52,549 bases of DNA from positions 1 through 52,549 of the forward strand of contig JADBZH010000036.1 in assembly GCA_020402585.1 (NCBI GenBank), given 5' to 3'. Each line of letters begins with the position of its first letter. Position 1 is the stretch's first letter. A program made the position numbers and the translations under genes. Shown here in pieces: positions 27,651 through 46,028 of the stretch. The DNA is from Phenylobacterium sp. GTDB taxonomy: Bacteria; Pseudomonadota; Alphaproteobacteria; Caulobacterales; Caulobacteraceae. The notes under the pieces were generated by a model. The model ran no database searches. It saw only the letters and a list, made by a program, of their open reading frames with translations, and had not been told where the DNA came from.

Positions 27651-27732
27651 GCGTCGGAGGAATTGGAATTCCCGGCGGCTCGGCTATCTCTGGGCGGGCA
27701 ATCAGGGATTCCACCGCCGGGGAGGCGACGGC

Positions 27733-28380: not shown

Positions 28381-28491
28381 TCCGACAGGAGGGAACTCCG
28401 GGCTGCCCACGGCTTGAGCCGGTCCCCGCCCGGACCTATCCTCACCCCGACCCCGCCTGGACCCTGGCGGCCCCCGACTGGGAGATCCCGC

Positions 28492-29505: not shown

Positions 29506-29616
29506 GTCGGGGCCGCCGCAGCTCTTTGGGCGCCCGGCGGACCCGGGTCCTTGCTTTACACGCTTCCGGTCCGCAACCGGATGTGCTGCAGTCCTCCGAA
29601 ACACCGGGAGGACTTC

Positions 29617-30030
29617 ATGCAGGAAATGACCGTCCGCGAGGACATTCCGCTGGCCGCCGATGCGGCCTGGGCCGTGATCGGCGACTTTTCGGGAATCCGG
29701 AAGTGGGCGACCCTGGTGGAGGCCGAGAGCACCGAGGTTACGCCAAAGGGCAAGGTGCGCACCCTGACCATGCCCGGCGGCCGGACCGTGTCGGAACTGA
29801 TGACCGACGAGGGGCCGCACCACTACACCTACACCCTCGATCGCCCCGACATGGAGGCCTACTTCTCCACCGTCTCGGTGGAGCCCGGCGACGGGGACTC
29901 CTGCGCCATCGCGCTGCGGGTTCGGTTCCAGCCCAAGGATGCCTCACAGCTCGAGGCGGCGACGGAGGCCATGGGGAAGTTCTGCCGCGGCAACCTCAAG
30001 GCGATGAAGCGGGCCCTGGGCCTGGCCTGA
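29617..30030 (+). CDS. SRPBCC-fold protein (polyketide cyclase/dehydrase-like)
   Basis: 137 residues with the START-like helix-grip pattern: MTVREDIPLAADAAWAVIGDFSGIRKWA at the N-terminus and a long C-terminal helix (ASQLEAATEAMGKFCRGNLKAMKRAL). These small proteins bind hydrophobic ligands in a central cavity. Some are cyclases or hydratases. Placement between two calycin-like genes, 27 bp before the second, suggests that all three handle one lipid or polyketide-like compound. Ribosome site GGGAGG precedes ATG 29617. Confidence 0.78.
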   Translation: MQEMTVREDIPLAADAAWAVIGDFSGIRKWATLVEAESTEVTPKGKVRTLTMPGGRTVSELMTDEGPHHYTYTLDRPDMEAYFSTVSVEPGDGDSCAIALRVRFQPKDASQLEAATEAMGKFCRGNLKAMKRALGLA

Positions 30031-30057
30031 ACCCCGCCGTTTCGAGGAGATTCGACC

Positions 30058-31191
30058 ATGCTGAACCGACTTGACGACTTCCCGATCCACCAGACCCCGG
30101 AGCCCATCGCCCACCCGGCGACCAGCGACCGCAACGTCTACGACCGCACCTGGTTCAATGCTTACGAGAAGGACGGCGGCTACTATTTCGGCGTCGGCAT
30201 GGCGGTCTACCCCTTCCGGGGCATACTGGACGGGGCCTTCAGCGTCGTGGCGCCGGGCGGGCGGCAGTACTGCTTCTACGGCTCGCGCCGGGCGCCCGCA
30301 GAGCGGACGGACATGTCCGTAGGCCCCTTCCGGCTTGAGGTGTTGGAGCCTATGCGACGCACCCGGGTCGTGCTGGAAAAGAATGAGAGCGGTCTGTCCT
30401 GCGACCTCGTCTTCTCGGCCCGGACGGCCAGCCTCCAGGAAGCTCGCCAGACCCTCTGGTCCGGGACCCGCCGGGTGATGGACTCCACCCGCTTCGACCA
30501 GTTCGGCCGCTGGAGCGGTTGGTTAGAGACGCCCGAGGGCCGCATCGAGGTGGACGCGGAGGTCTGCCTCGGCACCAAGGACCGGTCATGGGGGGTCCGA
30601 AACGTCGGCGAGCCCGAGACCGGCGGGGCGCCGCGCACAACACTCCCCAGCGTCTTCTTCCTCTGGACGCCCCTCTTCTGGGACGACCACATCTCACACG
30701 CCATCTTCTTCGATGACGCCCAGGGCCGGCCCCTGGTCCGCGAGGGCTTCACCGCGCCGCTCTATGACAGCGAGGCGGACATACCGGGGGTCGAGGACGG
30801 GCGGGACCATCGCATGGCCACGGCCCGGCACCGGGTCGACTACCACCCTGGTACGCGCCTGGCCCGCTATGCCGAGGTGGACCTCGTCGACCATGACGGG
30901 ACGGTCCGCACCATCAGCATGGAGCCCATCCTGAGGTTCCAGATGAAGGGCCTGGGCTATACCCACCCCGAGTGGGGGCAGGGCATGTGGAAGGGGGAAC
31001 TGGCCATCGGCCATGAGTCCTTCGATCCCCGCCAGCTCGATCCCCTGGCCCACTCGCACCTGCATACCCAGCAGGTCGTCCGCACCCGGGACAACGAGGG
31101 CCGGACGGGTATCGGCGTCCTGGAGCAGCTCTGCATTGGTCCCTATGCCCCGGCGGGCTTCACCCAGTTGCTCGACGGGGCCAAGGCCTAG
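30058..31191 (+). CDS. AttH/CrtC-like calycin protein 2 (DUF7064/7065-type, unknown function)
   Basis: 377 residues, cytosolic by absence of a signal. TKDRSWGVRN aligns with the KDKSWGPRNW motif of the protein at 28492. Other notable segments are YFGVGMAVYPFRGILDGAFSVV, FFLWTPLFWDDHISHAIFFDD and YTHPEWGQGMWKGELAIGHES, all rich in aromatic residues as expected for a hydrophobic-ligand beta barrel. The two proteins are paralogues of the same fold rather than recent duplicates. Ribosome site GAGGAGA precedes the ATG. The 3' end faces the enoyl-CoA hydratase gene with 20 bp between stops. Confidence 0.66.
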   Translation: MLNRLDDFPIHQTPEPIAHPATSDRNVYDRTWFNAYEKDGGYYFGVGMAVYPFRGILDGAFSVVAPGGRQYCFYGSRRAPAERTDMSVGPFRLEVLEPMRRTRVVLEKNESGLSCDLVFSARTASLQEARQTLWSGTRRVMDSTRFDQFGRWSGWLETPEGRIEVDAEVCLGTKDRSWGVRNVGEPETGGAPRTTLPSVFFLWTPLFWDDHISHAIFFDDAQGRPLVREGFTAPLYDSEADIPGVEDGRDHRMATARHRVDYHPGTRLARYAEVDLVDHDGTVRTISMEPILRFQMKGLGYTHPEWGQGMWKGELAIGHESFDPRQLDPLAHSHLHTQQVVRTRDNEGRTGIGVLEQLCIGPYAPAGFTQLLDGAKA

Positions 31192-31197
31192 ACTTCA

Positions 31198-31217
31198 GGG
31201 GTCAGCCGGGGTCAGCC
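31198..31217. repeat. Tandem 10-bp duplication at the end of the hydratase gene
   Basis: GGGGTCAGCC occurs twice back to back. The second copy contains the hydratase stop codon (minus strand), so the duplication places a second TGA-containing copy just beyond it. Probably a replication slippage event without functional effect. Confidence 0.6.
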
Positions 31218-31961
31218 GCCCTTCCGGGCGGCGAAGGCGGCGATACGCTCTCGCATGTCAGGGCCAACGCCTTCGCCGCGGTAGACTTCATGGGCGAGGC
31301 CCGCCGGCAGGGCCAGGCCGTCCGTCTGGTCCAGCAGGCGCTTGTTGGCGGCGTGGCTGAAGGGCGAGTTCGCGGCGATCTCGGCTGTCCAGGCGTCCAC
31401 GCCCTCCAGGAAGGTCGCGTCTGGCAGGCAGGCGTTGGCCAGCCCCATGGCCTCCGCCTCCCGCCCGGAATAGGTCCGGCAGGTGAACATCATTTCCCGG
31501 GCCTTGGCGGTCCCGACCCGTCGGGGCAGGCGCTGGCTCAGGCCCCAGACCGGCGTCAGGGCCCAGCGGGCGTGGGTGTCGGCGAACTTCGCGTTTTCCG
31601 CCGCCAGGATGATGTCGCCCGCCAGGGCCAGCTCCAGGGCGCCGGTGTAGCAGTGGCCATGGACCGCCGAGATCACCGGAAGGGGCAGGGCGGCCAGCCG
31701 CTCGATGACCTTCGACTGGAAGTGGGGCTCGGGCAACCGCTCGCCGGCGGCGATGTCGCCGAGGTCGTGGCCGGCCGAGAAACAGCGGCCCGCGCCCCGC
31801 AGGACGACAACGGCGATCCCGGCAGGGTCTGCGGCGATGTCCCGGACATGGGCGTCCAGGGCCTGGAAAACGGGGACGTTAAGCGAATTCAGCTTGTCAG
31901 GTCGGTTCAGCACCAGGTGCACCGCCGCGCCGCGCATCTCGCGCAAGACCAGATCGGTCAT
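31212..31961 (-). CDS. Enoyl-CoA hydratase/isomerase (crotonase family)
   Basis: 249 residues from the ATG preceded by GGAGGACG. Crotonase signatures: LVLNRPDKLNSLN, VVVLRGAGRCFSAGHDLGDIA (oxyanion hole) and VISAVHGHCYTGALELALAGDIILAAENAKFADTHARWALTPVWG. Acts on CoA-bound enoyl substrates in the cytosol, in beta-oxidation or a related degradation route. One Glu of the usual pair is replaced around HARWALTPVWG, so an isomerase or other crotonase reaction is as likely as hydration. It diverges from virB1 across 177 bp that contain the Pho-box-like repeat, which points towards virB rather than this gene. Confidence 0.85.
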   Translation of the reverse strand: MTDLVLREMRGAAVHLVLNRPDKLNSLNVPVFQALDAHVRDIAADPAGIAVVVLRGAGRCFSAGHDLGDIAAGERLPEPHFQSKVIERLAALPLPVISAVHGHCYTGALELALAGDIILAAENAKFADTHARWALTPVWGLSQRLPRRVGTAKAREMMFTCRTYSGREAEAMGLANACLPDATFLEGVDAWTAEIAANSPFSHAANKRLLDQTDGLALPAGLAHEVYRGEGVGPDMRERIAAFAARKGG

Positions 31962-32029
31962 ATGTCGTCCTCCCTTTTGAGACCGAGGGAACGCAATCCT
32001 TCCTCCCGATGTCAACCGGGCGGCCGGCG

Positions 32030-32047
32030 CTGTCATCCAACCGTCAT
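32030..32047 (+). promoter_or_regulatory. Pho-box-like direct repeat upstream of virB1
   Basis: CTGTCAT-CCAA-CCGTCAT: the first half matches the PhoB half-site CTGTCAT 7/7, the second 6/7, with the canonical 4-bp spacer (11-bp period). A -10-like TGTAAT follows at 32056-32061, the position expected for PhoB activation replacing a -35. Its end is 92 bp upstream of the virB1 start. Confidence 0.62.
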
Positions 32048-32138: not shown

Positions 32139-32726
32139 GTGAGAACCATCGCCATCGGTATCGGCGCTCTTCTCGCCACCCTGCTATCGGTACCGGAGGT
32201 CGCCAGAAGCCAGGTTCTCGAGATCGGGGACGATGGCGCGGTGACGACCTACTCCGGGCCCATGGTCATCACGTCTGCAGGCGCGCAATCCATCGTCCAG
32301 GTCGTCCCGACCCAGGTCTCGCCAGCTCCGGCCGTCGTGGCCAGGCTGATCGCCGAGGCCGCCGCCCGGCACGGGATCGACCCGGGTCTGGCCACAGCCG
32401 TCGCCTGGCAGGAATCCCGCTTCCAGCAGTCGGCCGTTTCTCCCAAGGGGGCCCGCGGGGTCATGCAGCTGATGCCCGCCACCGCCCGCGACCTGGGCGT
32501 TGACCCGGACGACCTCCACGGCAATATCGACGGGGGCGTGAATTACCTGGCCCGCCAGCTTCGGCGATTTGGCGATGTGCGGCTCGCCCTTGCGGCCTAC
32601 AACGCCGGACCTGAGGCCGTAATGCGTTACGGAGACGTGCCGCCGTTCGCGGAAACCCGCGCCTATGTCCAGGCGATCTTCTCGCGCCTCGGCGCCCCCC
32701 GTATCCTGTCCATCGGAGCTGAGTAG
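32139..32726 (+). CDS. virB1: VirB1-like lytic transglycosylase
   Basis: 195 residues from the GTG at 32139 (AGGA upstream). A signal peptide (RTIAIGIGALLATLLSVPEVARS) is followed by a variable region and a C-terminal SLT domain. That domain carries AVAWQESRFQQSAVSPKGARGVMQLMPATARDLGV with the catalytic Glu in WQES, and LALAAYNAGPEAV. Exported to the periplasm, it opens the murein for assembly of the secretion channel. It is the first gene of the T4SS operon; virB2 follows after 4 bp. The Pho-box-like repeat is immediately upstream of this gene. Confidence 0.88.
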   Translation: MRTIAIGIGALLATLLSVPEVARSQVLEIGDDGAVTTYSGPMVITSAGAQSIVQVVPTQVSPAPAVVARLIAEAAARHGIDPGLATAVAWQESRFQQSAVSPKGARGVMQLMPATARDLGVDPDDLHGNIDGGVNYLARQLRRFGDVRLALAAYNAGPEAVMRYGDVPPFAETRAYVQAIFSRLGAPRILSIGAE

Positions 32727-32730
32727 GACC

Positions 32731-33042
32731 ATGACCCGCAAGACCCTCTCTCTCAGCGCTCTCGCCGCCCTCTTCGCCTCGCCCGCCCTGGCGCAGACCC
32801 AGGCCCAGGCGGATCCCGCCGGATCTTCGCCGCTCATCGCCGCCCTCAGCTGGGTCCAGGGAACCCTCCTGGGCACAGTGGCCACCAGCGCAGCGGTGAT
32901 CGCCATCGCCATTGTCGGCTTCCTGATGCTATCGGGCCGGATGGACTGGCGCCGCGGGGTGATCGTCATTGTCGGCGCCTTCATCATCTTCGGCGCCGTC
33001 TCCATTGTTGCGGGCATCCGCAGCCTCGCCGGAGCCATGTAG
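32731..33042 (+). CDS. virB2: VirB2-like major pilin
   Basis: 103 residues. Signal peptide ending SPALA-QTQAQA, then two hydrophobic helices (TLLGTVATSAAVIAIAIVGFLMLSG and GVIVIVGAFIIFGAVSIVAGIRSL) separated by a short basic loop (RMDWRR), which is the TrbC/VirB2 pilin layout. After processing, the roughly 80-residue pilin would sit in the inner membrane and assemble a pilus. It lies between virB1 (4 bp) and virB3 (1 bp), confirming its identity by position. Confidence 0.88.
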   Translation: MTRKTLSLSALAALFASPALAQTQAQADPAGSSPLIAALSWVQGTLLGTVATSAAVIAIAIVGFLMLSGRMDWRRGVIVIVGAFIIFGAVSIVAGIRSLAGAM

Positions 33043-33043
33043 G

Positions 33044-33328
33044 ATGAGCCGGCTGGCCTCCGATCCGGTCTTCGCCGCCCTCACACGGCCGCAAATGATC
33101 GGCGGCGTCACCTACACCTACGCCATCCTCAACCTCATCGTGACCGGGGAGCTTTTCCTCATCACCAAGTCGTTCTGGGTCCTCGGCGTGGCGCTGGTGA
33201 TCCACGCCATTGGCTATGCCGGGTCGGTCCGTGAGCCGCGCTTCTTCGACATCTGGATCACCCGGCTCCGGTCCTGCCCGCGGGTGCGGAACTTCAGCTT
33301 CTGGGGCGGGAACTCGTACACGCCGTGA
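33044..33328 (+). CDS. virB3: VirB3-like inner-membrane component
   Basis: 94 residues. The N-terminal DPVFAALTRPQMIGGVTYTYAILNLIVTGELFLIT and VLGVALVIHAIGYAGS are the two membrane helices typical of VirB3/TrbD, followed by REPRFFDIW. It is an inner-membrane partner of the VirB4 ATPase. Its stop overlaps the GTG of virB4 (GTGA), so the two are translated together, as is general in these loci. Confidence 0.88.
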   Translation: MSRLASDPVFAALTRPQMIGGVTYTYAILNLIVTGELFLITKSFWVLGVALVIHAIGYAGSVREPRFFDIWITRLRSCPRVRNFSFWGGNSYTP

Positions 33329-35709
33329 CCAAGGTCATCACCACACAGGCCGCCCGTCTCCTGGCGCCGCGGGAAGCCCCCATCGGCGACCGCCTGCCCT
33401 ATGCGCGCCATCTGGACGCCCAGACGGTGACGACCCGGGACGGTCTGCTGGTCCAGACCCTTCACATTTCGGGCTTTCCCTTCGAGACGGCGTCAGACGA
33501 AGACCTGAACTACCGCAAGTCGGTCCGGGAGACGGTTCTGCGAAGCGCCGCCACCTCGCGCCTGGCCCTCTGGCACCACGTGGTCCGGCGTCGGGTCACC
33601 CCTGAGTTCCCACCCCCGCCAGAGGAACCTTTCTGCGCGGATCTCGACCGAAAGTGGCGCGAGCAGCTCGAGGCCCGCCAGCTCTTCATCAACGACATCT
33701 TCCTGACCCTTGTCCTGAGGCCGACCCAGGGGCGGGCGGGGCTCATCGAGAAGGTGCTGAGGGGGCCGCGTCAGCGGCAGTCCGAGACCGCCCGGGACCT
33801 GCGCGAGCTTCACGCCATCCGCGAGTCCTTCTCGGCCGCCCTGTCGCCCTACGGCGCTCGCACCCTCAGCCTCTACGACGGTCCGGGAGGCGCCCAGTAC
33901 TCCGAGCCCTCCGAGTTCCTCGCCCTTCTGCTGAACGGGGAGGGCCGGCCCGTCCTCACCCCATCTGGTGAGATCGGCGCCGCGGTCGGACAGCGCCGCC
34001 TGACCTTCGGCCTGGACGCCATGGAGCTCGGGACTGGTCATGGCGGCGCGCGCAGCTACGCCGCCGTGGTGGGCCTGAAGGATTATCCTGCGCGGACCGC
34101 GCCGGGCCTGCTCGACGGCGTCCTTCGCCTGCCCCACGAGATGGTGCTGACCGAAAGCTTCGCCTTCCAGGACCGCCAGGCTTCACTGGACCGGATGGGC
34201 GTGGCCCTGCGCCGCCTCAAGGCCGCCGACGACGACGCCTTCAGTCTCAGGGGCGAACTTGCCCAGGCGCGGGATGACATCGGCGCCGGCCGTACGGCCT
34301 ATGGAGAGCATCACCTTTCGATCCTTGTTCGCGCCGACTCCCTTCCGACCCTCGACTATGCGGTCGCAGACGTGCAGTCCGCCATGGCCGAGGCCGGCGC
34401 CCTTGCGGTCCGGGAGGACGCCAACCTGGAACCGAGCTTCTGGGCCCAGTTCCCCGGCGGCTTCCGGTTCATCGCTCGCAAAGGGCTGATCTCTGCAGGA
34501 AACTTCGCCAGCCTGGCCAGTTTCCACAACCATCCGACGGGTGAGGCGGCAGGCAACCACTGGGGACCGGCGATCTCCGTCCTGGAGACCACGGCCTCGG
34601 GTCCCTACCATTTCAACTTCCACCAGGGCGACCTCGGCAACTTCACCTGCATCGGGCCTTCCGGGTCCGGCAAGACCGTCCTCCTGACCTTCCTGCTGGC
34701 CCAGGCCGAGAGGGTCCGGCCGCGTATCGCCTACTTCGACAAGGACCGCGGCGCAGAGCCCTTCATCCGGGCCATTGGCGGCCGCTACGACGTCCTGCGA
34801 CCGGGCGAGCCGACCGGCTTCAACCCCCTTCTGCTGCCGGATGAGCCCGGCAACCGGGCCTTCCTTACCGAGTGGCTCGCCCAGCTCCTTTCCGCGGACG
34901 GATCGACCCTCAGCGCCGACGACCGGGCGGTGATCGCGGACGCCATCGACGCCAACTTCGCCCAGCCGACCAGCCACCGCAGGCTGCGCTTCCTGCGGGA
35001 GTTGTTCCGGGGCGGCCGCCGCCCCACCCCCGGCGACCTCGCCTTCCGGCTGGGGCCCTGGTGCGAGACGGGAGAGCACGCCTGGCTGTTCGACAACGCC
35101 GAGGACCAGCTCAGCCTGGAGACCCGCGTCCTGGGCTTCGACATGACCCGGGTCCTGGACGCGCCGGAGGTCCGCACCCCCGCCATGATGTACCTGTTCC
35201 ACCGGCTGGAGCAGAGGCTGGACGGATCCCCCGCCATCTTCGTCGTCGACGAGGGCTGGAAGGTCCTGGACGACCCGGTCTTCGTCCGGCGGATCAAGGA
35301 CTGGGAGAAGACGATCCGCAAGCGCAACGGTCTGGTGGGATTTTGCACCCAGAGCGCCTCGGACGCCCTGGACAGCCGGATCGCCGCAGCCATCATCGAG
35401 CAGGCCGCGACCCAGATCTTCTTCCCCAACGCCCGGGCCAAGCCGGACGAGTACATCGACGGCTTCGGCCTCTCCGAGCACGAGTTTTCCCTGGTGAAGT
35501 CCCTGCCGGACACCTCGCGGTGCTTCCTGGTCAAGCGGGGCGACCATAGCGTCGTGGCGAGGCTGGACCTGTCGGGGCTCTCCGGACCCCTTCAGGTGCT
35601 GGCCGGGACAGAGCGGTCCGTCCGGCGGCTGGACCAGCTGCGGGCGGTGGTGGGTGATGCGCCCTCGGCCTGGCTTGAGCCCTTCATGGCGGGAAAGAGC
35701 GCGCCATGA
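33325..35709 (+). CDS. virB4: VirB4 ATPase
   Basis: 794 residues. Walker A GPSGSGKT at about 444-451 and a Walker B-like FVVDEGW near 636, then the C-terminal TQSASD motif typical of VirB4 (VGFCTQSASDALDS). The N-terminal CagE/TrbE/VirB domain (RTLHISGFPF-like start at VQTLHISGFPFETASDEDL) precedes the ATPase. It drives pilus biogenesis and substrate transfer at the inner membrane. It overlaps virB3 and virB6 by four bases each. Confidence 0.94.
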   Translation: MTKVITTQAARLLAPREAPIGDRLPYARHLDAQTVTTRDGLLVQTLHISGFPFETASDEDLNYRKSVRETVLRSAATSRLALWHHVVRRRVTPEFPPPPEEPFCADLDRKWREQLEARQLFINDIFLTLVLRPTQGRAGLIEKVLRGPRQRQSETARDLRELHAIRESFSAALSPYGARTLSLYDGPGGAQYSEPSEFLALLLNGEGRPVLTPSGEIGAAVGQRRLTFGLDAMELGTGHGGARSYAAVVGLKDYPARTAPGLLDGVLRLPHEMVLTESFAFQDRQASLDRMGVALRRLKAADDDAFSLRGELAQARDDIGAGRTAYGEHHLSILVRADSLPTLDYAVADVQSAMAEAGALAVREDANLEPSFWAQFPGGFRFIARKGLISAGNFASLASFHNHPTGEAAGNHWGPAISVLETTASGPYHFNFHQGDLGNFTCIGPSGSGKTVLLTFLLAQAERVRPRIAYFDKDRGAEPFIRAIGGRYDVLRPGEPTGFNPLLLPDEPGNRAFLTEWLAQLLSADGSTLSADDRAVIADAIDANFAQPTSHRRLRFLRELFRGGRRPTPGDLAFRLGPWCETGEHAWLFDNAEDQLSLETRVLGFDMTRVLDAPEVRTPAMMYLFHRLEQRLDGSPAIFVVDEGWKVLDDPVFVRRIKDWEKTIRKRNGLVGFCTQSASDALDSRIAAAIIEQAATQIFFPNARAKPDEYIDGFGLSEHEFSLVKSLPDTSRCFLVKRGDHSVVARLDLSGLSGPLQVLAGTERSVRRLDQLRAVVGDAPSAWLEPFMAGKSAP

Positions 35710-36857
35710 GCCAGGCCTGTCCCTCCTACATGGACGCCGGCCCGATTGATGGCGTGCTGGCGACCATCGACTGCCAGACCCGGGTCTACGCCCAGGGCGG
35801 CTACGAGGCCCTGACCCAGGGCTCGGGACTTTTCGGAGCGGCGTTGACCCTCCTGTTGACCATCTATGTGGCCCTGATCGGCTGGCGCCTCCTGGTGGCC
35901 CCGGAGGGGGCGCGGCTGTCGGAAGCGCCCGGCGTGGCCCTGCGCATCGGCGCCATCCTGGCCCTTGTGACTAACTGGTCTGTCTTCCAGACCCTGGTCT
36001 TCGACCTTGCAGACCGTGCGCCCGTCCAGATTGCGGCCGCAGTGTCCGCGCCCTGGACCTCCGGCGGGGAAGGGCGGAGCCTGGCGGCCCGTCCCGTCGC
36101 CGGCCTTGACCAGGCGCATGCCGAGCTGCGCCGCGCCGCCGCCGCCTTCGGGGTCCGGGCGCCGCCCAACGCTAAGGCCTACGCCAGCGCGGAAGCGGCC
36201 TCAGCGGAGGCGCTTTCCCTTGCCGCCGACGCCCTGATGGTGATGAGCGTCGGGGTCATTGGCGGCGCCAAGCTCGCTATCGGCGTTCTGACCGCGGTGG
36301 GGCCGGTCTTCATCGCCCTGGCCCTCCTGAACGTGACGCGGGGGGTCTTCTTCGGCTGGGTGAGGGCCCTGGCGGGTTCCGCCCTCAGCCTGCTCGTCGG
36401 CTGGGCCCTCCTGATCCTGCTCCTCGTCGTCCTAGCGCCCTGGCTGGCGGCGCTGGCGGCCCAGAGGGAGGCCCAGGCCCTTGAACCCCGCATGGCCACC
36501 AGCCTCGCGGCCATCCTTCTGGTCTTCGCGGTCGGGCAGGGGGTGCTGATCGTCGCCGCCTGGGTGGCCGCCCTCGGTCTGAGGATGGGGACGCCCGCTA
36601 TCGTTCCGGCGTCCCCGGCGGGCGCCACTGTTCGGCCGGAGCTGGCCGCCGCCCCGCAGGCCGCCTCCCGCGCCGACCGCCTCGCCCAGGCGTTGACCCA
36701 GGATGGGCAGAGGTTTGAAAGCCGGGTTCGGGAAGTCACCCTGGCGGGCGCGGCCGCCCGCTCGACCCCTGTGCCCGTCATAGGCGCCCGTCCTGCGGAC
36801 ACCATCGGGGGCAGCTACAGAAGGCCGATCGCAACGCGACGGCGTGGAGGCGCATGA
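35706..36857 (+). CDS. virB6: VirB6/TrbL-like polytopic channel protein
   Basis: 383 residues. After an N-terminal segment with paired Cys (SQACPSYMDAGPIDGVLATIDCQ) come several membrane helices: LFGAALTLLLTIYVALIGWRLLVAP, ALRIGAILALVTNWSVFQTLVF, LMVMSVGVIGGAKLAIGVLTAVGPVFIALALLNV, LAGSALSLLVGWALLILLLVVLAPWLAAL and LAAILLVFAVGQGVLIVAAWVAALGL. The C-terminus is basic (YRRPIATRRRGG). VirB6 forms part of the inner-membrane channel. It overlaps virB4 upstream and virB9 downstream (ATGA), leaving no room for the usual virB7-virB8 between virB6 and virB9. Confidence 0.88.
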   Translation: MSQACPSYMDAGPIDGVLATIDCQTRVYAQGGYEALTQGSGLFGAALTLLLTIYVALIGWRLLVAPEGARLSEAPGVALRIGAILALVTNWSVFQTLVFDLADRAPVQIAAAVSAPWTSGGEGRSLAARPVAGLDQAHAELRRAAAAFGVRAPPNAKAYASAEAASAEALSLAADALMVMSVGVIGGAKLAIGVLTAVGPVFIALALLNVTRGVFFGWVRALAGSALSLLVGWALLILLLVVLAPWLAALAAQREAQALEPRMATSLAAILLVFAVGQGVLIVAAWVAALGLRMGTPAIVPASPAGATVRPELAAAPQAASRADRLAQALTQDGQRFESRVREVTLAGAAARSTPVPVIGARPADTIGGSYRRPIATRRRGGA

Positions 36858-37609
36858 TGTTTCGCTCCGTCCTCATCGCGGCCTGTCTCGCCCTGACGCC
36901 GGCCGCCGTTCTTGCCGTGACCCCCCGCCCTGGCGGGGGAGATCCCCGCATCCATTTCGTCGACTTTGACCCGGTCGCCGTGGTCGAGCTCAGGGGCGCC
37001 CTCCGGCATCAGCTGACCGTCGAGTTCGATCCTGCAGAGCGCATCGAGAACGTCGCCATCGGCGATAGCCTCGGCTGGCAGGTCACACCCAACCGCCGGG
37101 CGAACCTGCTCTTCCTCAAGCCCATGGCGCGCCGGCCCTCCACCAACATGACCGTGGTCACCAACCTGCGCCGGTACAACTTCCAGCTGACCTCGCTGGC
37201 CCAGCCGACACGAGGCATGCCCTTCACGGTCCGGTTCGTCTATGCGCCGCCGGTCGCTCTGGTGCAGACGCCGCCGCCGCCGGATCCGCCGCCGGAGGTG
37301 CGCAATGCGGCCTACTCCTTCCAGGGCTCCCGGGCCTTGCTGCCGGTTCGGATCTTCGACGACGGCCGGGACACCTACTTCGCCTTTCCCGGGGATGAAG
37401 ACCTGCCCGCCATCTTCGCTGTGGAGCCCGACGGGGCCGAGGCGGTGATCAATCTGCGCCTCCGGGACGGGCTCTTCGTGGCCGACCGGGTCGCCCAGGG
37501 CTTTGTCCTGAGGCGGGGCGGGGAGGTCACCCGCGTGTTCAACGACGGATATCGCCGGCCTGAGACCAGCCAGGTCCCGGAAAAGCGCCGTTCCTTCTGG
37601 GGAAGATGA
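36854..37609 (+). CDS. virB9: VirB9-like outer-membrane core complex protein
   Basis: 251 residues with a signal peptide (MMFRSVLIAACLALTPAAVLA). The CagX/VirB9 pattern is seen at VTPRPGGGDPRIHFVDFDPVAVVELRGALRHQLTVEF, IGDSLGWQVTPNRRANLLFLKP, TNMTVVTNLRRYNFQL and PFTVRFVYAPP. The C-terminal beta-sandwich includes NAAYSFQGSRALLPVRIFDDGRDTYFAFP. VirB9 forms the core-complex outer ring with VirB10 and, usually, VirB7. No VirB7 lipoprotein is encoded beside it. Overlaps virB6 and virB10 (ATGA at both ends). Confidence 0.9.
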   Translation: MMFRSVLIAACLALTPAAVLAVTPRPGGGDPRIHFVDFDPVAVVELRGALRHQLTVEFDPAERIENVAIGDSLGWQVTPNRRANLLFLKPMARRPSTNMTVVTNLRRYNFQLTSLAQPTRGMPFTVRFVYAPPVALVQTPPPPDPPPEVRNAAYSFQGSRALLPVRIFDDGRDTYFAFPGDEDLPAIFAVEPDGAEAVINLRLRDGLFVADRVAQGFVLRRGGEVTRVFNDGYRRPETSQVPEKRRSFWGR

Positions 37610-38706
37610 AGATGGTCGAGAACAAGGCGGTTCCCCCGACCGGCCGGGCCAGCAAGGTTCTGGCCAGCGAGGTTCCGGACAGCGAGGTCCTGACGCGTGC
37701 TGCGGACTCCCTTCCCAAGGTGAGGGCGCCGGATTCGCCTCTGGTCTTCTGGGGCGGGATGGGCGGCGCTGTCCTGGCGGGTCTCCTGGTCTTCAACGGG
37801 CTCAACGCTTCGCGGGGCGCCCAGGCGCAGGTCACCCCTCCGCCGGCCGCCGAGGCGCCTCCGCCCGTTGCAGCTCCCGCCCCCGCACCGCTCCCCATGC
37901 CCCCCCCGGCGGCCACCGAGACGCCGCCTGGCGTCCCCGTGCCCGCCGCCAATACGGAGGACGCCTATCTCCGGTCCCCGACCCTGGTCGTTGACCTCGC
38001 GCCGCCAGAGGGTGCGGCCCAGGCGCCTGCGGCCAGCCCGGCTGCGCCGGTCTCAGCGCCGTCCGAAGCTCCGGGTTCGCCTGAGGAGCGTTTCGCGGCG
38101 CGGACCATGGGAGGGACCAGTGAAGGGGCCCGGGCCATGCAGATGAGGGATCTCAGCCGCATTGTTCCGCAGGGCACCCTGATCGCCGCCGTCCTGGAAT
38201 CGGCGATCAACTCCGACCTGCCCGGCGCCGTCCGGGGCGTGGTCAGCCGGGATGTGCGCAGCTTCGACGGCAGCCGGGTCCTGATCCCCAGGGGCTCGCG
38301 GCTGGTCGGTGAGTACAAGTCCGCCGCCTCCATCGGGCAGACCCGCGCCTTCGTCGTCTGGAGCCGGATCATCAGCCCGACCGGGGTCAGCATCGACATC
38401 GCCTCTCCCGCCGTCGACCGCCTCGGTCGGGGCGGCGTGGAGGGCAAGGTCGACAACCACTTCCTTGAACGCTTCGGCCCCTCGATCCTCCTGACGGTCC
38501 TCAACGCCGGCGCCACCGCCGCCGCCAACAGCGGATCCAACAACAGCAACACCACCCTCGTCCTGGGATGGTCGGGCCAGGCAGGGCAGGCGGCCGCCGC
38601 CGCCGTCCGGCCAACGGACGTCACTGCGACTCTTAAGGTCGACCAGGGGGCCGCAATCCAGGTCTATGTGGCCCGGGACCTCGACTTTGCGGGCGTCGTC
38701 CGCTGA
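37606..38706 (+). CDS. virB10: VirB10-like core channel protein
   Basis: 366 residues. One membrane helix at about 46-66 (SPLVFWGGMGGAVLAGLLVFNGL), then a Pro/Ala-rich periplasmic linker, then the C-terminal TrbI/VirB10 barrel. Motifs include RIVPQGTLIAAVLESAINSDLPGAVRGVVSRDV and LIPRGSRLVGEYKS; the final NTTLVLGWSGQAGQAA segment precedes the antenna end. VirB10 spans from the inner membrane to the outer membrane and gates the channel. Its stop shares one base with the virB11 ATG (TGATG). Confidence 0.92.
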   Translation: MKMVENKAVPPTGRASKVLASEVPDSEVLTRAADSLPKVRAPDSPLVFWGGMGGAVLAGLLVFNGLNASRGAQAQVTPPPAAEAPPPVAAPAPAPLPMPPPAATETPPGVPVPAANTEDAYLRSPTLVVDLAPPEGAAQAPAASPAAPVSAPSEAPGSPEERFAARTMGGTSEGARAMQMRDLSRIVPQGTLIAAVLESAINSDLPGAVRGVVSRDVRSFDGSRVLIPRGSRLVGEYKSAASIGQTRAFVVWSRIISPTGVSIDIASPAVDRLGRGGVEGKVDNHFLERFGPSILLTVLNAGATAAANSGSNNSNTTLVLGWSGQAGQAAAAAVRPTDVTATLKVDQGAAIQVYVARDLDFAGVVR

Positions 38707-39686
38707 TGAACGCCAACGTCTATCTCGGCGCCTTCCTCGCCCCTCTCTCGCCCTGGCTGGGGCGGCCCGAAGTGACGGACGTCCTGGTCAACGCCCCGGG
38801 CGAGGTCTGGGTCGAGACGGCGACCGAAGGCATGCGCCGCGAGGCCGCCCCCGGACTTGATGAGACCACCCTCCAGCGACTGGTGCGCCAGATCGCGGCC
38901 TACAGCAGCCAGGGCGTGAACCGGGAGCAGCCACTCCTGTCGGCAACCCTGCCCGATGGCGCTCGCGTACAGGTGGTGGCGCCGCCGGCCACCCGGGGCG
39001 GGACGGTCCTGGCCGTACGCAAGCATCTGATCTCTGACCTCAGCCTCGAGGATCTCTCGGCAAGCGGACTGTTCGTTCGTCCCGCCGGAGAGGATGCCGG
39101 AGTGTCCGGTGACGGGATCATGGCCAGCCTGCTTGAGGCCGGCGACCGGTTGGGCTTCCTGCGGGAGGCGGTGCGCCGGCGGAAGACGATCGTGATCTCG
39201 GGCGGCACGGGCAGCGGCAAGACCACGCTCCTCAATGCGCTCGTCAAGGAGATCGACGAGTCCGAGCGCCTGGTCGTCATCGAGGACGCACCGGAAATTC
39301 GCTTGGACCATCCCAACAGTGTCGGCCTGATCGCCGTGAGGGGCGACATGGGCGAGGCGCGGGTCGATGCGGACGCTCTCCTGATCGCCGCCCTGAGGCT
39401 GCGGCCGGACCGGATCCTGCTCGGGGAACTCAGGGGATCAGAGGCCTTCGCCTTCCTGCGGGCGGTGAACAGCGGTCATCCGGGCTCGATCACCACCATC
39501 CATGCCGACAGCCCCGCCGGCGCTCTCGACCAGATTGGCCTCCTGGCCCTCACGTCAGGCCTGGAGTTGGGCTGGGACAAGGTCCAGGCCTATGTTTCGA
39601 GGGTGATTGACGTCGTGGTCCAGATCGAGCGGTCCGGAGGCGTCCGCCGGATCTCGGATATCCAGTTCCTCGGCCGGCGCGCCTGA
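38706..39686 (+). CDS. virB11: VirB11 traffic ATPase
   Basis: 326 residues. N-terminal domain to about 155, then Walker A GGTGSGKTT at about 166-174, the Asp box VVIEDAPEIRLDHPNSVGL, Walker B-like DRILLGELRGSEAF and the His box GSITTIHADSP. A hexameric cytosolic motor that energises pilus assembly and substrate export with VirB4. It is the last T4SS gene and is followed after 4 bp by a bidirectional-looking hairpin; no VirD4 coupling protein follows. Confidence 0.94.
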   Translation: MNANVYLGAFLAPLSPWLGRPEVTDVLVNAPGEVWVETATEGMRREAAPGLDETTLQRLVRQIAAYSSQGVNREQPLLSATLPDGARVQVVAPPATRGGTVLAVRKHLISDLSLEDLSASGLFVRPAGEDAGVSGDGIMASLLEAGDRLGFLREAVRRRKTIVISGGTGSGKTTLLNALVKEIDESERLVVIEDAPEIRLDHPNSVGLIAVRGDMGEARVDADALLIAALRLRPDRILLGELRGSEAFAFLRAVNSGHPGSITTIHADSPAGALDQIGLLALTSGLELGWDKVQAYVSRVIDVVVQIERSGGVRRISDIQFLGRRA

Positions 39687-39742: not shown

Positions 39743-42370
39743 TCAGAACTTGGCGGAAAGTCCCAGCGAGTAGGACTGCCCGATCTCGAAGCTGTTCGTG
39801 TCGAACCGCTTTCCACCCGCAGCCTGGTACTCCTCGGCGTCCGTCCCGGTCAGGTTCCGCGCCTCGAAGGAACCGGTGAACTCCCGGCCCTGGAACTCGA
39901 AGTTGCGCCGATAGACAAAGTCGACCCTCATGCCAGGCTTCTGGACGAGGTCCGGCAGGTCGATGCTGCTGGAACGGGCGGAGACGCGCTCGCTCGTATA
40001 GGTCACGAGGATTGTGGCCTGCGAACCCGCTTCGTCGTTCTCGAAGCCCAGCTGCAGATTGGCCAGGTGATCGGACTGTCCCTGAAGCTTCTCTCCGCCG
40101 GTCAGGTAGTCACTGGCGGGCGGGGTGGTGGGGACGCCCGTGATATCAAGGGTGATGGTGTCCCCGTCCGAAACCTTCAGGCTCGAGGTCGTGTAGGTGT
40201 AGTTGAGCGAGACAAGCCAGCGCCGCTCATCGACCCAGCCCGTACCGGTGTCCGGTTCGAAGAGCTTCTTGAACTCAACTTCGCCGCCGTAAATGTCTGC
40301 GGCTGGCGCATTGTAGAAGGTCTGGCGGAAGGCGCCATCGGAGCCCAGGACCGCGAGGGCTTCGACGGGCTTCTCCATGTTCTTGTAGAAGGCGCCGAAG
40401 GTGAAGTACTGGCCCTTGCTGAAGTAGCGCTCGTATCGGGCGTCGACGTTCACGAAGGTCGTATCCTCGAGGTAGGGATTGCCCGAGAGGATCCGGTCGG
40501 TCTCCGTGTCCCGGTAGCGCTGCGGGGCCAGTTCCCGGAACTGCGGCCGGCCGATGGTCTGGGACAGGCCGAAGCGCAGCTGCTGGTCCTCGGCGAAGTT
40601 CCAGGTCAGGGTCGCCGCCGGAAGGAGGTAATCCTTCGAGACGCTGCGGCTGAAGATCGGCGCAGCGGTCGGCGCGAAGATGTCCAGGGTCTTCACCGAC
40701 AGGTCCGCCGTCTCGTAGCGCAGGCCAATGCTGCCCCTGAGCAAGGGACGGATCTCACTGTCCACCTGGACATAGGCCGCAGCCACCTCCAGCCCGGCGT
40801 CATACATGGCGGCGTCCCCGGTCAGGGAAGACCCTGTCAGTTCCCGCAGCATGATGATGTCGTCGTTGATGTTCCGGTCCGCCACCAGGTAGTCGATCCG
40901 CTGGCCGGCGTAACGCGCCGGGTCCCAGTTGCGGCCCTGGTCGTAGGTGAAGTCCCGACGGACAGAGGTCCGGGTGTTCCGCTGCCAGGCGGCGCCCATC
41001 TTCAGCTGGGCCTGCCGGACGAAGTCCACGGGAAGGTCATAGGCGAGGTCAAGGTTGGCCGAGCCGATGTTTTCATCCAGGTCCGAGAAGGAGACCAGCT
41101 GGTTGGCGCCCGACAGCAGGGCTGTACGCCCGCCGGTCGCCGACAGACCGTACCGGTACAGCCGCTCGTACGGCGCCTGGCGGGCCGTCCGGCCATAGGT
41201 CCCGCGCCAGGCGAGTTCCCAATCCCCGATGAGGTGTTCGCCTGAGAGCTGGCTCAGCTGCAGCACGCGCTCGTACCACTCCGAGTTGTAGGCGTTCACA
41301 TTGGTGTTGCCCTGCGACTGGGCCGTGTTGGAGGTGATCCGGGCGCGCTTCGACGTCGAGCGGATCCAGAGACCGGTATAGCGGACCTCGTTGTCTCCGT
41401 TCTCCCAGGCCAGGCCGCCAAGGCCGCTCCAGGCGATGTCGTTCTGGTTGGCCTCGAAGGTCGCATCCGTGGCGAGGGCCAGTCCGCCGGTGTCAGGAAC
41501 CGCGGTCTGGCGCACGCCCTTTCGCGTCTGCCAGCCGTTCCGGTAGCTCAGGACCCCGATGGCGCCGATGCGCCCATAGTCGGTATCGAAGGTCTGTCCG
41601 CCTGAGACGTCGAAATTGCCGTTAAGCGGCGTCTTGTCCCGCTGAAGGACGTTCAGCGGGGCGTTGGTGAAGCTCCGCGCGACAGCCTTGTACTGGTCCG
41701 TCGTCAGCCCGCCCGTGGCGCTTCCGACCACCACGGGGCGGTTGGCGGCGAACTGGCGAACGCCCACCGGCAGCTTCCGGGCCCCGTCGTCGAAGCCCAG
41801 CCAGTCGGTCTCTGATCCGTAATAGGTCAGCCCGCTCTTTCCCGTTGTCACGGTGTCGCCGCTCATGCCGACGCCCATCTTGAGGAAGGGCTCGTCAGGC
41901 GTCCCGACCGTTTGCAGGTCGATCACCCCGCCCCCGAACTCGCCGGGATAGTTGGCCGAGAAGGTCTTCTGGATCACGGTTCCCGAGAGGATCGAGGCCG
42001 GGAAGAGATCCAGGGGAATGACGCGCTGCAGCGGCTCGGGGCTGGGCAGGGGAGAGCCGTTCAGCAGGGCCTGGGAGTATCGTTCACCCAGTCCACGGAC
42101 ATAGACGAACTTGCCCGATACCAGGGAGATGCCCGTGATCCGGGTCAGCGCCTGGGCCGCATTGTCGTCACCGGCCCGCTGCACGTCCTCGACACTGAGG
42201 AAGTTCGCCACTTCCGCGGTGTCACGGATGACATCCGGGATGAACCGGCCGCTGACGATGATTTCTTCGACTTCGGTCCCCTCGCTGGGCGGAGGGGTCT
42301 GGGCGAAGGCCGAGTGCGCCGAGGTGAGGGCGGCGCTTGCCAACAGGAGGGTGCGGAGGGTTCGGGTCAT
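39743..42370 (-). CDS. Large TonB-dependent receptor
   Basis: 875 residues. Signal peptide (MTRTLRTLLLASAALTSAHSAFA), a TonB box-like VEEIIVSGR, and a plug with QALTRITGISLVSGKFVYVRGLGERYSQALLNGSPLPSPEPL and IQKTFSANYPGEFGGGVIDLQ. The barrel ends in the expected terminal aromatic (SLGLSAKF). The KFVYVRGLGERYS type is a large receptor subfamily in Caulobacterales and Sphingomonadales. It lies downstream of the beta-helix lipoprotein, which is probably its surface partner, and a hairpin lies between them. Its 3' end converges on virB11. Ligand unknown; phosphate-containing compounds are possible if the upstream Pho-like site is real. Confidence 0.9.
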   Translation of the reverse strand: MTRTLRTLLLASAALTSAHSAFAQTPPPSEGTEVEEIIVSGRFIPDVIRDTAEVANFLSVEDVQRAGDDNAAQALTRITGISLVSGKFVYVRGLGERYSQALLNGSPLPSPEPLQRVIPLDLFPASILSGTVIQKTFSANYPGEFGGGVIDLQTVGTPDEPFLKMGVGMSGDTVTTGKSGLTYYGSETDWLGFDDGARKLPVGVRQFAANRPVVVGSATGGLTTDQYKAVARSFTNAPLNVLQRDKTPLNGNFDVSGGQTFDTDYGRIGAIGVLSYRNGWQTRKGVRQTAVPDTGGLALATDATFEANQNDIAWSGLGGLAWENGDNEVRYTGLWIRSTSKRARITSNTAQSQGNTNVNAYNSEWYERVLQLSQLSGEHLIGDWELAWRGTYGRTARQAPYERLYRYGLSATGGRTALLSGANQLVSFSDLDENIGSANLDLAYDLPVDFVRQAQLKMGAAWQRNTRTSVRRDFTYDQGRNWDPARYAGQRIDYLVADRNINDDIIMLRELTGSSLTGDAAMYDAGLEVAAAYVQVDSEIRPLLRGSIGLRYETADLSVKTLDIFAPTAAPIFSRSVSKDYLLPAATLTWNFAEDQQLRFGLSQTIGRPQFRELAPQRYRDTETDRILSGNPYLEDTTFVNVDARYERYFSKGQYFTFGAFYKNMEKPVEALAVLGSDGAFRQTFYNAPAADIYGGEVEFKKLFEPDTGTGWVDERRWLVSLNYTYTTSSLKVSDGDTITLDITGVPTTPPASDYLTGGEKLQGQSDHLANLQLGFENDEAGSQATILVTYTSERVSARSSSIDLPDLVQKPGMRVDFVYRRNFEFQGREFTGSFEARNLTGTDAEEYQAAGGKRFDTNSFEIGQSYSLGLSAKF

Positions 42371-42439: not shown

Positions 42440-43954
42440 TCAGCAGGAGGCCGCGCCTGCCAGGCCGCAGGTCCAGCCGACGTACCAGTTGTCGGTCAGG
42501 CCGGAGACTGCACCGATGTAGGTCGTCGCCAGGAAGAAGGACGAGGCGGGGATCGGGTTGGTGGCGACCCGTCCGCTCTCGTTCGAACCGTTGATGAAGC
42601 CCTGGGAGAAGGTCGGGGTGTAGCCGGTCGCGATGTTGTTCGGGCCGGCGTTGAACAGGGTCTCGGGACCGGTGGGCTGGTCGTTGTCCGTGGTGCGGAA
42701 GGGACCCGCGCCGCAGGAGAGGGCCACCGAGGAGAAGGTGGGCCGGGGCTCAGCCATCGTCGAGGAGCCGTCCACGTCAATGCAGGGGATGGACGGGTGG
42801 GCCGAATAGATCACGCCGTTCAGGAAGTCCGCCCGGGTGCCGCCGTTCAGGACCAGGCCCTGGTGCTGGCGGGAGTCAAAGGTCGTGGTGGCCAGGCCGA
42901 GACGGCAGACGAAGTTGGAAACCTTGGGGTGGGCGCGCAGAAGCGGGAGACCGCCCGAGGTGGAGCCGGCGCCCGAGATTTCAAAGCAGCGGGCTTCTTC
43001 GGTGGGCCGGTCCGACGTGTTAATGATGTACTGGGCCGAGCCGGTGTATCCCTCGTCGGTGTCGAAACCGTCGTCATCCCACTCGGTCAGCACGAGGCGG
43101 CGCACATTCACCGTACCGCCGAAGAACTCCACCGCATCGTCCGCGCCGCCGTGAACCTGGACGAAGTCGACAAGGGTGCCGTTGCCGACGCCGCCGAAGG
43201 TGATGCCGTTCAGCTCCTCGTTGGGGGCCACTTCGTAGCCGGCTTCCTTGACCTGGACGTAACGGAGCACGCCGCTGTTGTCGTTCGCCGCGTTGCCGCC
43301 CCAGTTGATCGTCTGGATCGCTTCGAAGCGGAACTCGCAGTTCACCGGATTCGCCGGGAAGCTGGTGGTGGTCGGCGGGCAGCGGTTGATCGGAGCCCGG
43401 CCGGCGATGACGATGCCGCCCCACTGGCCCTTGAGGTCAGGGCCGCCGTTCAGGTCGTTCAGGCTGGTGAAGATGATGGGGCGCGAGGCGGTGCCGTCGG
43501 CGATGATCCGAGATCCGCGGTTGACCGCGATGTACTCGGCGATGCCGCCGAACACAATGACGCCCGGTTCGATGGTCAGGACGCCCGACTGAACGCCCGT
43601 GCGGGGGTTCTGGGCGTCAGGGCCGAGGTCCTGGCCCACCTCGGTCTTGCCATCGACCCGATAGGCGGTGCCCGGCCGGAAGGGGAGGGTCAGGGAGCCG
43701 GTGACGAGGCGTGGGATGCCGCAGGAGCGCAGGGTTCCGTTGGCGATGGTGCCGAGGTTGATGAACCCGGTGGGGCAGTCGGCTGAAGCCGATCCGGATC
43801 CACCGGACCCGCCGGAACCACCACCCGTACCCCCGGTGGCGAACTGTCCTTCGCCGGGCGATGCGATGCTGGATCCGCCGCCGCCGCAGGCGGCCAGCAG
43901 GCCGCTCGCAGCGACGCTCAGGGCAAGGATTTTCAGCTTTCCGAGAGCTGTCAT
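42440..43954 (-). CDS. Surface/periplasmic beta-helix lipoprotein paired with TonB receptor
   Basis: 504 residues from the ATG with GGAGA upstream. Lipoprotein signal (KLKILALSVAASGLLAAC) gives a lipidated Cys followed by a Gly/Ser-rich tether (GGGGSS onwards, then GGTGGGSGGSGGSGSAS). The long domain has the repeating turn pattern of a right-handed beta-helix: LTIEPGVIVFGG, YIAVNRGSRIIADGTASRPIIFTS, QWGGIVIAGRA, RYVQVKEAGYEV, NGTLVDFVQVHGGADDAVEFFGGTVNVRRLVLTEWDDDGFDTDEGY. These acidic turns may bind metal. Several Cys pairs suggest disulphides. The gene precedes a TonB receptor by 69 bp. Such lipoprotein-receptor pairs are frequent in this group, but their substrates are mostly unknown. A Pho-like site lies about 129 bp upstream. 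Confidence 0.8.
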   Translation of the reverse strand: MTALGKLKILALSVAASGLLAACGGGGSSIASPGEGQFATGGTGGGSGGSGGSGSASADCPTGFINLGTIANGTLRSCGIPRLVTGSLTLPFRPGTAYRVDGKTEVGQDLGPDAQNPRTGVQSGVLTIEPGVIVFGGIAEYIAVNRGSRIIADGTASRPIIFTSLNDLNGGPDLKGQWGGIVIAGRAPINRCPPTTTSFPANPVNCEFRFEAIQTINWGGNAANDNSGVLRYVQVKEAGYEVAPNEELNGITFGGVGNGTLVDFVQVHGGADDAVEFFGGTVNVRRLVLTEWDDDGFDTDEGYTGSAQYIINTSDRPTEEARCFEISGAGSTSGGLPLLRAHPKVSNFVCRLGLATTTFDSRQHQGLVLNGGTRADFLNGVIYSAHPSIPCIDVDGSSTMAEPRPTFSSVALSCGAGPFRTTDNDQPTGPETLFNAGPNNIATGYTPTFSQGFINGSNESGRVATNPIPASSFFLATTYIGAVSGLTDNWYVGWTCGLAGAASC

Positions 43955-44462
43955 GGGTCGGTCTCCACCGTATCGACGTTTCGTGCGCAAACAGGGTGTG
44001 GCGACCGCGCCAAGACCGGCCCCCCGAACACCCCTTTGGGGCAGGTTCTAGGGACGGCCTGTGACGCCCAGCCTTCACTTTGATGACAGAAACATGTCAT
44101 TCCGGCTTGGGGCGGGCGGGTGGACGCCCCGGAGAAGGCGCCGGTCCCCCGTGGTCCGCACAGGAATGTCCGCGACAAGGGCTCCCCAGGCCTCGGAGCG
44201 CCGCCATGCCGGCTGGAGCGTTCTGTCCCAGGAGGCCGACGACGGCTTCGGGATGGATCACCCCAGAACCCTGGTTGGCGCCGGAGACGCCGGTCGGCCG
44301 GATCGTCGTGACCTTGATGCGAACCCGGGATTCCACCTGCAGCGAGCAGGTGGGTGCAGAAACCTGCAGCTTGCCGCTTGGTCACCTACTGGCGGCCCTG
44401 CCGGGGGTCTGTCAAACATCGGGTCGGGCGCTGTCCCGCGCCCCGGACCCGGAGATCCCGCC
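43955..44462. other. 508-bp intergenic region without a recognised gene
   Basis: Divergent promoter region between the beta-helix lipoprotein (minus) and the GFA gene (plus). It holds the Pho-like element at 44083-44100 and, near 44336-44354, a small hairpin CACCTGC-AGCGA-GCAGGTG. Open frames are present but have no ribosome site, no family match and poor continuity, so none is called. Confidence 0.6.
44083..44100 (-). promoter_or_regulatory. Pho-box-like or inverted-repeat element upstream of the lipoprotein
   Basis: On the minus strand: ATGACAT-GTTT-CTGTCAT. The promoter-proximal half is a perfect PhoB half-site (7/7), the other 5/7, with the right 4-bp spacer. The same bases are also an inverted repeat ATGACA-N6-TGTCAT, so another regulator is possible. 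No convincing -10 follows at the PhoB distance. About 129 bp upstream of the lipoprotein ATG. Confidence 0.42.
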
Positions 44463-44861
44463 ATGCGTGGAAACTGCCTCTGCGGTGACGTCGCCTTCGA
44501 GTGTGACGCCGCCCCCGTCGTGACCGTCGCCTGCCATTGCACCCACTGCCAGAAGACCAGCGGCTCGGCCTTCTCGGTCAACGCCATCGTCCCGGGCGCC
44601 GCCTTCCGGCTGACGGGCGGCTACGCTGTCTACGCCGACCAGGGCGAGAGCGGCGGGTCCGTCGAGCGCTGCTTCTGCCCGAAGTGCGGCTCTCCCCTGG
44701 CTTCGCGCCTCGGCAACGGCATGGTCGCAGTCAAGGTCGGCGCCCTAGAGAGCCAGGAGGACGTGACCCCCGCCCTGCAGGTCTGGACCCGCAGCGCCCG
44801 GTCCTGGTCGAAGACCCTCCTGGCCGCCCCCGGCTTCGAGACCAACCCACCCTCGGCCTGA
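44463..44861 (+). CDS. GFA-family (glutathione-dependent formaldehyde-activating-like) zinc protein
   Basis: 132 residues. The zinc cysteines are in order: C5 and C7 (NCLCG), C24, C26 and C29 (ACHCTHC), and C70, C72 and C75 (CFCPKCG). This is the GFA/CENP-V-like fold, whose biochemical role in glutathione-formaldehyde adduct formation is disputed and whose members may act on other small carbonyls or in zinc binding. Its ATG is preceded by GGAGA, and the acyl-CoA dehydrogenase start lies 14 bp after its stop, so the three genes are likely one operon. Confidence 0.85.
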   Translation: MRGNCLCGDVAFECDAAPVVTVACHCTHCQKTSGSAFSVNAIVPGAAFRLTGGYAVYADQGESGGSVERCFCPKCGSPLASRLGNGMVAVKVGALESQEDVTPALQVWTRSARSWSKTLLAAPGFETNPPSA

Positions 44862-44875
44862 CCCGGAGATCCGCC

Positions 44876-46024: not shown

Positions 46025-46028
46025 GGCC

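Follow-up and report, generated by a model that had tools for sequence, protein, structure and literature searches.

The VirB4-family ATPase is the signature subunit of all type IV secretion systems (T4SSs) (PMC12857230, in excerpt), and the described members closest to the locus reported here are the type IVA systems VirB/D4 and R388 Trw and the Ptl system of Bordetella pertussis. In the R388 structure, as presented in the excerpted part of its description, VirB8 forms arches and 18 VirB8 tails bind VirB4 (PMC9259494). According to excerpts of two sources, Ptl has neither VirD4 nor VirB5 and releases periplasmic subunits delivered by Sec, for which a pilus-push model has been put forward, the cargo serving as tip (PMC12857230, PMC8402538). 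The excerpted text also offers a precedent for an absent VirB8, the apparatus of mycoplasma integrative and conjugative elements (ICEs) of wall-less bacteria (PMC12857230). Here we analyse a T4SS operon without VirB8 at positions 32139-39686 of a 52,549-nucleotide stretch of Phenylobacterium sp. DNA (GCA_020402585.1, contig JADBZH010000036.1, positions 1 to 52,549 of the forward strand), the whole of which we call the window. Mycoplasma ICEs are conjugative elements of hosts without a cell wall, in which an outer-membrane core is not expected. In the T4SSs studied in most depth, VirB8 belongs to the inner-membrane ring. We find that the absence of VirB8 is a repeated trait of a lineage, which an earlier, sequence-only reading of the window could not see.

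The chromosomal VirB-type operon comprises eight co-directional genes, virB1-2-3-4-6-9-10-11, all of them intact open frames and each matching its own Pfam family:

32139..32726, + strand: virB1, lytic transglycosylase (SLT), GTG start; Pfam PF01464, 1.5e-25
32731..33042, + strand: virB2, pilin (TrbC/VirB2); Pfam PF04956, 5.3e-18
33044..33328, + strand: virB3; Pfam PF05101, 1.9e-26, and NCBIfam NF010474 above cut-off
33325..35709, + strand: virB4, ATPase (CagE_TrbE_VirB), GTG start; Pfam PF03135, 1.7e-38, and TIGR00929 above cut-off
35706..36857, + strand: virB6, polytopic inner-membrane protein (TrbL/VirB6); Pfam PF04610, 2.1e-23
36854..36857, + strand: ATGA overlap of the virB6 stop and the virB9 start, the site of virB8 in relatives; read from the sequence
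36854..37609, + strand: virB9, outer-membrane core (CagX/VirB9); Pfam PF03524, 9.5e-51
37606..38706, + strand: virB10 (TrbI/VirB10); Pfam PF03743, 1.5e-51
38706..39686, + strand: virB11, ATPase (T2SSE); Pfam PF00437, 1.4e-33, and TIGR02788 above cut-off

In order, the seven junctions are gaps of 4 and 1 bp followed by overlaps of 4, 4, 4, 4 and 1 bp, and with no gap above 4 bp the spacing leaves no room inside the operon for virB8, virB5 or virB7. The sequence-only reading had described eight intact genes that overlap or nearly touch, an ATGA overlap between virB6 and virB9, and no place for a hidden virB8, and on all of these counts it was right. Against NCBIfam models, VirB9 (188.7 bits, cut-off 217.7) and VirB10 (210.3 bits, cut-off 220) are top matches that fall below the cut-off. 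VirB4, the VirB9/VirB10 core, VirB3/VirB6, VirB2 and VirB11 are all present by Pfam, which places the operon in the T4SS superfamily; it is, however, not a canonical VirB/D4 system (mating-pair formation type T, MPF-T), as neither VirB8 nor VirD4 (PF02534) was found in this genome. With VirB/D4 and R388 Trw it shares VirB1-4, VirB6 and VirB9-11, in matching Pfam families, and it differs from both in that no VirB8, VirD4 (PF02534) or PF03432 relaxase was found and no space exists for VirB5. The parts held in common with Ptl are VirB2, VirB3, VirB4, VirB6, VirB9, VirB10 and VirB11, and in neither was VirD4 found (PMC8402538, PMC12857230, in excerpt). Ptl, in the excerpted account, has a VirB8 homologue and no VirB1 (PMC8402538), the reverse of the present operon, which is therefore not Ptl by membership.

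The genome-wide absences were established in the assembly to which the window belongs (2.85 Mb, 140 contigs, 99.99% complete; the operon lies on contig C71). The VirB8 family PF04335 has no match anywhere in it; as none of the 14 control genomes (0/14) was matched in the same search, this result alone says little, and the positive control comes from VirB8-bearing relatives, in which the method, validated separately, matched 14/14. A profile built from 14 sister VirB8 sequences likewise found no match in the assembly, even at E≤1. VirD4 (PF02534) is without a match in the assembly (5/14 controls match; the TrwB family, PF10412, was not part of the genome-wide search), as is the relaxase family PF03432 (1/14 controls matches; other relaxase families were not searched). 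PF07996 (VirB5) also gave no match in the assembly, but it matched no control genome either, so that the absence of VirB5 is argued from the spacing of the operon genes. The operon's virB4 is the sole PF03135 match in the assembly. A genome-wide search for virB8, virD4 and a relaxase, as the sequence-only reading had proposed, extends to the whole assembly, for PF02534 and PF03432, what it had noted nearby, namely no coupling protein and no relaxase; given the missing PF02534 and PF03432 matches, ordinary conjugation by this operon appears unlikely.

For the comparison with relatives, the best 80 of 285 stretches matching in a VirB4 scan were kept, 40 operons were hand-picked from family genomes, with preference for long contigs and for genomes that lack VirB8, and six further operons joined the set, either as outgroup or for comparison of VirB8. 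Ten loci, nine of them short or cut and the tenth L145 (genome G168), were set aside as undetermined. The final set has 117 rows, or 113 different rows when four pairs of identical copies are considered. The nearest relatives are Phenylobacterium and Caulobacteraceae metagenome assemblies. VirB8 is absent from 91/117 operons and present in 26/117, proportions that are not a prevalence, because the choice of operons favoured VirB8-free genomes. Nearly all loci of sufficient length share one gene order, with virB1 moved or not found in some. In two VirB8-less loci, virB1 follows virB11, downstream and on the other strand (L034:16493-17143 and L038:16449-17105), and several VirB8-bearing operons have a second VirB2-like frame right after virB11 (L068:17074-17358, L069:16943-17350, L148:14456-14725 and L149:14412-14657).

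Among the first 80 loci, 14 hold an open frame of 227-335 aa between virB6 and virB9 (that of L069 trimmed near its internal start), and all 14 match PF04335; in the other cases where both genes are visible, virB6 directly abuts virB9. Over the whole set, the VirB8 match begins after virB6 and before virB9 in 26/26 VirB8 operons (in L064 and L073 the virB9 frame reaches back over virB8, hence a script flag on gene order). In 86/87 measured VirB8-less operons, with starts chosen mechanically, the virB9 start and the virB6 stop share 4 or 1 bases, a direct junction which indicates that virB8 has gone without a scar. No VirB8 residue was found in the 91 VirB8-less loci or their flanks, where the best hit reached 7.4 bits, as compared to at least 196 bits in the 26 VirB8 loci. 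This recurrence in related operons shows that the absence is not a defect of a single genome, and we regard the existence of a VirB8-less lineage as virtually certain.

A tree of VirB3, VirB4, VirB9 and VirB11, for which four VirB8-bearing operons with 42% VirB4 identity served as the outgroup, requires four changes of VirB8 state, all four of them forced by its starred branches. The VirB8-less groups are 1) the window's clade of 57 rows, sister to the VirB8-bearing L151, 2) a Caulobacter clade of 15 rows, sister to the VirB8-bearing L111/L167, 3) an 18-row clade that includes Sphingopyxis and Sphingorhabdus, and 4) L062 alone, sister to the VirB8-bearing L071. The VirB8-bearing sisters (L151, L111, L071, and Sphingomonas and Brevundimonas loci) have the same gene order and VirB4 family, and differ in carrying virB8 between virB6 and virB9. 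Because the outgroup carries VirB8, the four changes are read as losses; by parsimony on a quick-search tree, supported by the Shimodaira-Hasegawa-like approximate likelihood ratio test (SH-aLRT) only, virB8 most likely disappeared on at least four separate occasions, with the other genes kept, and we hold a repeated loss with high confidence. PF02534 (VirD4) is also absent in 3/14 VirB8-bearing genomes, and the absence of VirD4 may precede the loss of VirB8.

Whether a VirB8 is encoded elsewhere was also followed in other genomes. A check of 50 relatives, taken from 68 candidate loci, covered 36 genomes with a VirB8-less operon, many of them draft metagenome assemblies; PF04335 is without any match in 15/36 and has one or more in 21/36. 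All 44 hits in those 21 genomes (44/44) adjoin a VirB9 of their own and 43/44 adjoin a VirB10, the exception being L109, where the contig end cuts the locus and the VirB9 hit is weak (28 bits). Placed beside their own VirB9, these hits belong to other T4SS operons, and two of them, L111 and L124, represent VirB8-bearing operons from this same family.

A survey of 322 family genomes at ≥90% completeness matched the window's VirB4 in 189/322 (E≤1e-60) and PF04335 in 181/322. Taking a best match of E≤4.7e-207 as the mark of a VirB4 of the window's own type gives 129 genomes, including some with VirB8-bearing operons, and 45/129 are without a PF04335 match anywhere. Among these 45, 17 operons were read (the window's included) and VirB8 is absent in 17/17, four of them from single-contig genomes (G298, G084, G228 and G229); an 18th, from G168, is incomplete. 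A VirB8 encoded elsewhere is thus rejected for the window's genome, on two profiles, and for 45/129 family genomes. By genome-wide profiles, the Caulobacter vibrioides control genome matches VirB4 and DUF1800 and does not match VirB8 or VirD4, and probably carries such an operon.

Decay, with the operon as what is left of a former conjugation system, would explain why VirB8, VirD4 and a PF03432 relaxase are missing (PF07996, for VirB5, being without a match here as in the controls), and it has a possible parallel in the relative G168, whose locus L145 runs virB2-3-4 and then, after position 9507, shows no virB6, virB9, virB10 or virB11 although the contig continues, and is perhaps a broken operon copy. 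It is nonetheless the least probable reading considered here, to which we give very little credence, as the eight frames are intact and the ratio of non-synonymous to synonymous substitution rates (dN/dS) of the operon genes is 0.02-0.24 against the near relatives L001-L004 (the L001 contig ends within virB9 and gives no virB10 or virB11 value). With the very close L072 as the reference, the values are 0.02-0.11, apart from a virB1 value of 0.75 that stems from almost no changes. A Walker A-type motif is kept in 91/91 VirB4 and 83/83 VirB11 rows and, together with the virB6-virB9 overlap conserved in 86/87 operons, these intact frames, low dN/dS values and kept motifs make decay unlikely.

The genes next to the operon provide candidate partners. 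In the window, two genes on the opposite strand follow virB11:

39743..42370, - strand: TonB-dependent receptor, convergent neighbour and putative partner; Pfam PF00593/PF07715, the same neighbour in near relatives
42440..43990, - strand: predicted parallel beta-helix lipoprotein, putative partner or cargo

In relatives, a DUF1800/DUF1501 pair is found beside the operon more often than the TonB receptor/beta-helix pair, and each pair occurs in four arrangements relative to it. We counted linkage in the 80 loci that are flanked by ≥4 kb at either end (67 VirB8-less and 13 VirB8-bearing; one more is undetermined): either pair adjoins 46/67 VirB8-less and 2/13 VirB8-bearing loci, counts that do not represent independent events because the loci are related, and a linked pair occurs in 2/20 of the VirB8-bearing sisters. 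Both linked pairs are probably exported, and the TonB receptor/beta-helix pair may belong to the secretion system. One VirB8-less locus, L010:643-16459, has the TonB receptor/beta-helix lipoprotein pair upstream and DUF1501/DUF1800 downstream. The window's own genome has a DUF1800/DUF1501 pair on contigs other than that of the operon; a contig break seems to run through the pair, with one part at the end of C29 and the other at the start of C93 (L126:10519-11865 and L127:2-1961).

Elsewhere in the window, the segment upstream of the operon (26178-32036) contains DUF2855, DUF7064/DUF7065, Polyketide_cyc2 and enoyl-CoA hydratase genes and is perhaps a lipid or aromatic catabolic region, and a 665-aa open frame without a Pfam match at 44630-46627 (- strand) may be spurious.

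The set of kept and missing parts resembles Ptl, and on this analogy we propose a two-step exporter or a surface organelle. That the operon encodes a reduced, VirD4-independent, Ptl-like machine, acting as a piston that exports periplasmic proteins or building a short VirB2 pilus, is a plausible reading that we favour without yet holding it to be probable; the two-step export mechanism itself we advance a shade more tentatively. VirB2, VirB3, VirB4, VirB6 and VirB11 would make a VirB2 fibre, VirB9/VirB10 would form the outer-membrane channel, and VirB1 would open a hole in the cell wall. VirB4 and VirB11, seated on VirB3/VirB6, would extend VirB2 through the VirB9/VirB10 channel without VirB8 arches, so that proteins already in the periplasm, or a short VirB2 pilus, would be pushed through the outer-membrane core. 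The linked proteins would serve as cargo, tip or surface partners (the TonB receptor and beta-helix lipoprotein here, DUF1800/DUF1501 in relatives). The parts not kept would be those for cytoplasmic loading (VirD4), the fibre tip (VirB5, for which the PF07996 search lacked a control match) and the arches (VirB8). The broader proposal, that of a separate class of type IV machine which occurs in Caulobacter too, has repeatedly discarded the VirB8 arches and combines a minimal VirB2 piston with a dedicated exported pair as tip or cargo, is more doubtful still.

Several observations weigh against this picture. A VirB8 from another T4SS could act in trans in the 21/36 genomes that have one. The tree has some long branches besides its SH-aLRT-only support, the G168 operon is incomplete, since no virB6 or virB9 follows its virB2-3-4, and, although VirB8 tails touch VirB4 in R388, the N-terminal part of VirB4 is not clearly relaxed in VirB8-less rows. 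As for the linked pairs, beyond the relatedness of the counted loci, export motifs were found in only 15/20 DUF1800 and 12/25 DUF1501 rows, and 21/67 well-flanked VirB8-less loci have neither pair (among them L012, L014, L018, L129, L132, L134-L137, L146 and L160-L162). The VirB8-bearing L059 and L151 also have the DUF1800/DUF1501 pair, so that linkage can occur without VirB8 loss (the L059 bin is labelled Candidatus Sulfopaludibacter, Acidobacteriota, perhaps through an error in binning). The beta-helix lipoprotein belongs to a large family, with 1437 matches among 7987 scored candidates. DUF1800/DUF1501 pairs are also known, from the excerpted text of PMC5122149, beside chitin synthases; there, the same two Pfam families are adjacent and DUF1501 has a twin-arginine motif (PMC5122149), and the partner is a chitin synthase where here it is the VirB operon.

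For the missing VirB8, the sequence-only reading had left a choice between a substitute, a part located elsewhere and a simplified machine. The two negative profiles speak against the second for this genome, and a simplified machine fits best. A substitute, in the form of an unrelated inner-membrane protein encoded elsewhere that replaces VirB8 in an otherwise ordinary T4SS, is unlikely but deserves to be taken seriously: a replacement would be plausible for a protein that makes arches and touches VirB4 in R388 (PMC9259494, in excerpt), and the N-terminal part of VirB4 is about as conserved in VirB8-less rows. However, no gene outside the operon is conserved next to all VirB8-less operons by clustering, and four separate losses would have required a replacement each time, or one that was present beforehand. 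The lengths show no fused domain either; a VirB8 fused to a partner was rejected because no gain approaches the size of the VirB8 domain, with median lengths in the three multi-row VirB8-less clades of 385-415 aa for VirB6 (403 in VirB8 rows), 363-369 aa for VirB10 (367) and 253-272 aa for VirB9 (231). The C-terminal halves of VirB9 and VirB10 are somewhat more conserved in VirB8-less than in VirB8-bearing pairs at similar VirB4 identity, these pairs being non-independent.

Of the readings that concern function, one in which the operon serves adhesion alone, through a VirB2 pilus or surface organelle and without secretion, as proposed for Bartonella Trw, is also unlikely, somewhat more so than a substitute for VirB8. 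It would account for the retention of VirB2, VirB4, VirB11 and VirB1 and for the unmatched PF02534, Trw, in excerpted text, having no VirD4 and being believed to display pili (PMC12857230), and the linked beta-helix lipoprotein could, from its predicted fold, be an adhesin at the surface or a protein active on glycans; the operon has no space, though, for VirB5, which usually acts as tip and initiator. A machine for DNA uptake or release, ComB-like or gonococcal-like, is highly improbable: ComB is likewise described without VirD4 and VirB5, but it keeps VirB8 and has no VirB11, the opposite of this operon (PMC12857230, in excerpt), and the PF03432 relaxase has no match in the genome. The Ptl-like, reduced machine is the reading we retain, at the tentative strength given above.

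In the titles and excerpts covered by our literature search, neither a Gram-negative VirB8-less system nor a link between DUF1800 and a T4SS is described; two papers on the H. pylori Cag system do contain the words 'absence of VirB8'. The main text of a Caulobacterales genome paper (PMC12700997) does not mention VirB or T4SS, and the excerpted description of the P. zucineum genome names VirB or Trb systems that include VirB8 or TrbF (PMC2529317). A Gram-negative system without VirB8, conserved and probably repeatedly evolved, is a natural test of the role of the arches, and as Caulobacter vibrioides probably carries the operon, a model organism for it would be at hand. Through the linked pairs, proteins of unknown function gain a testable partner, and if the connection is true, this would be the first machine for these families.

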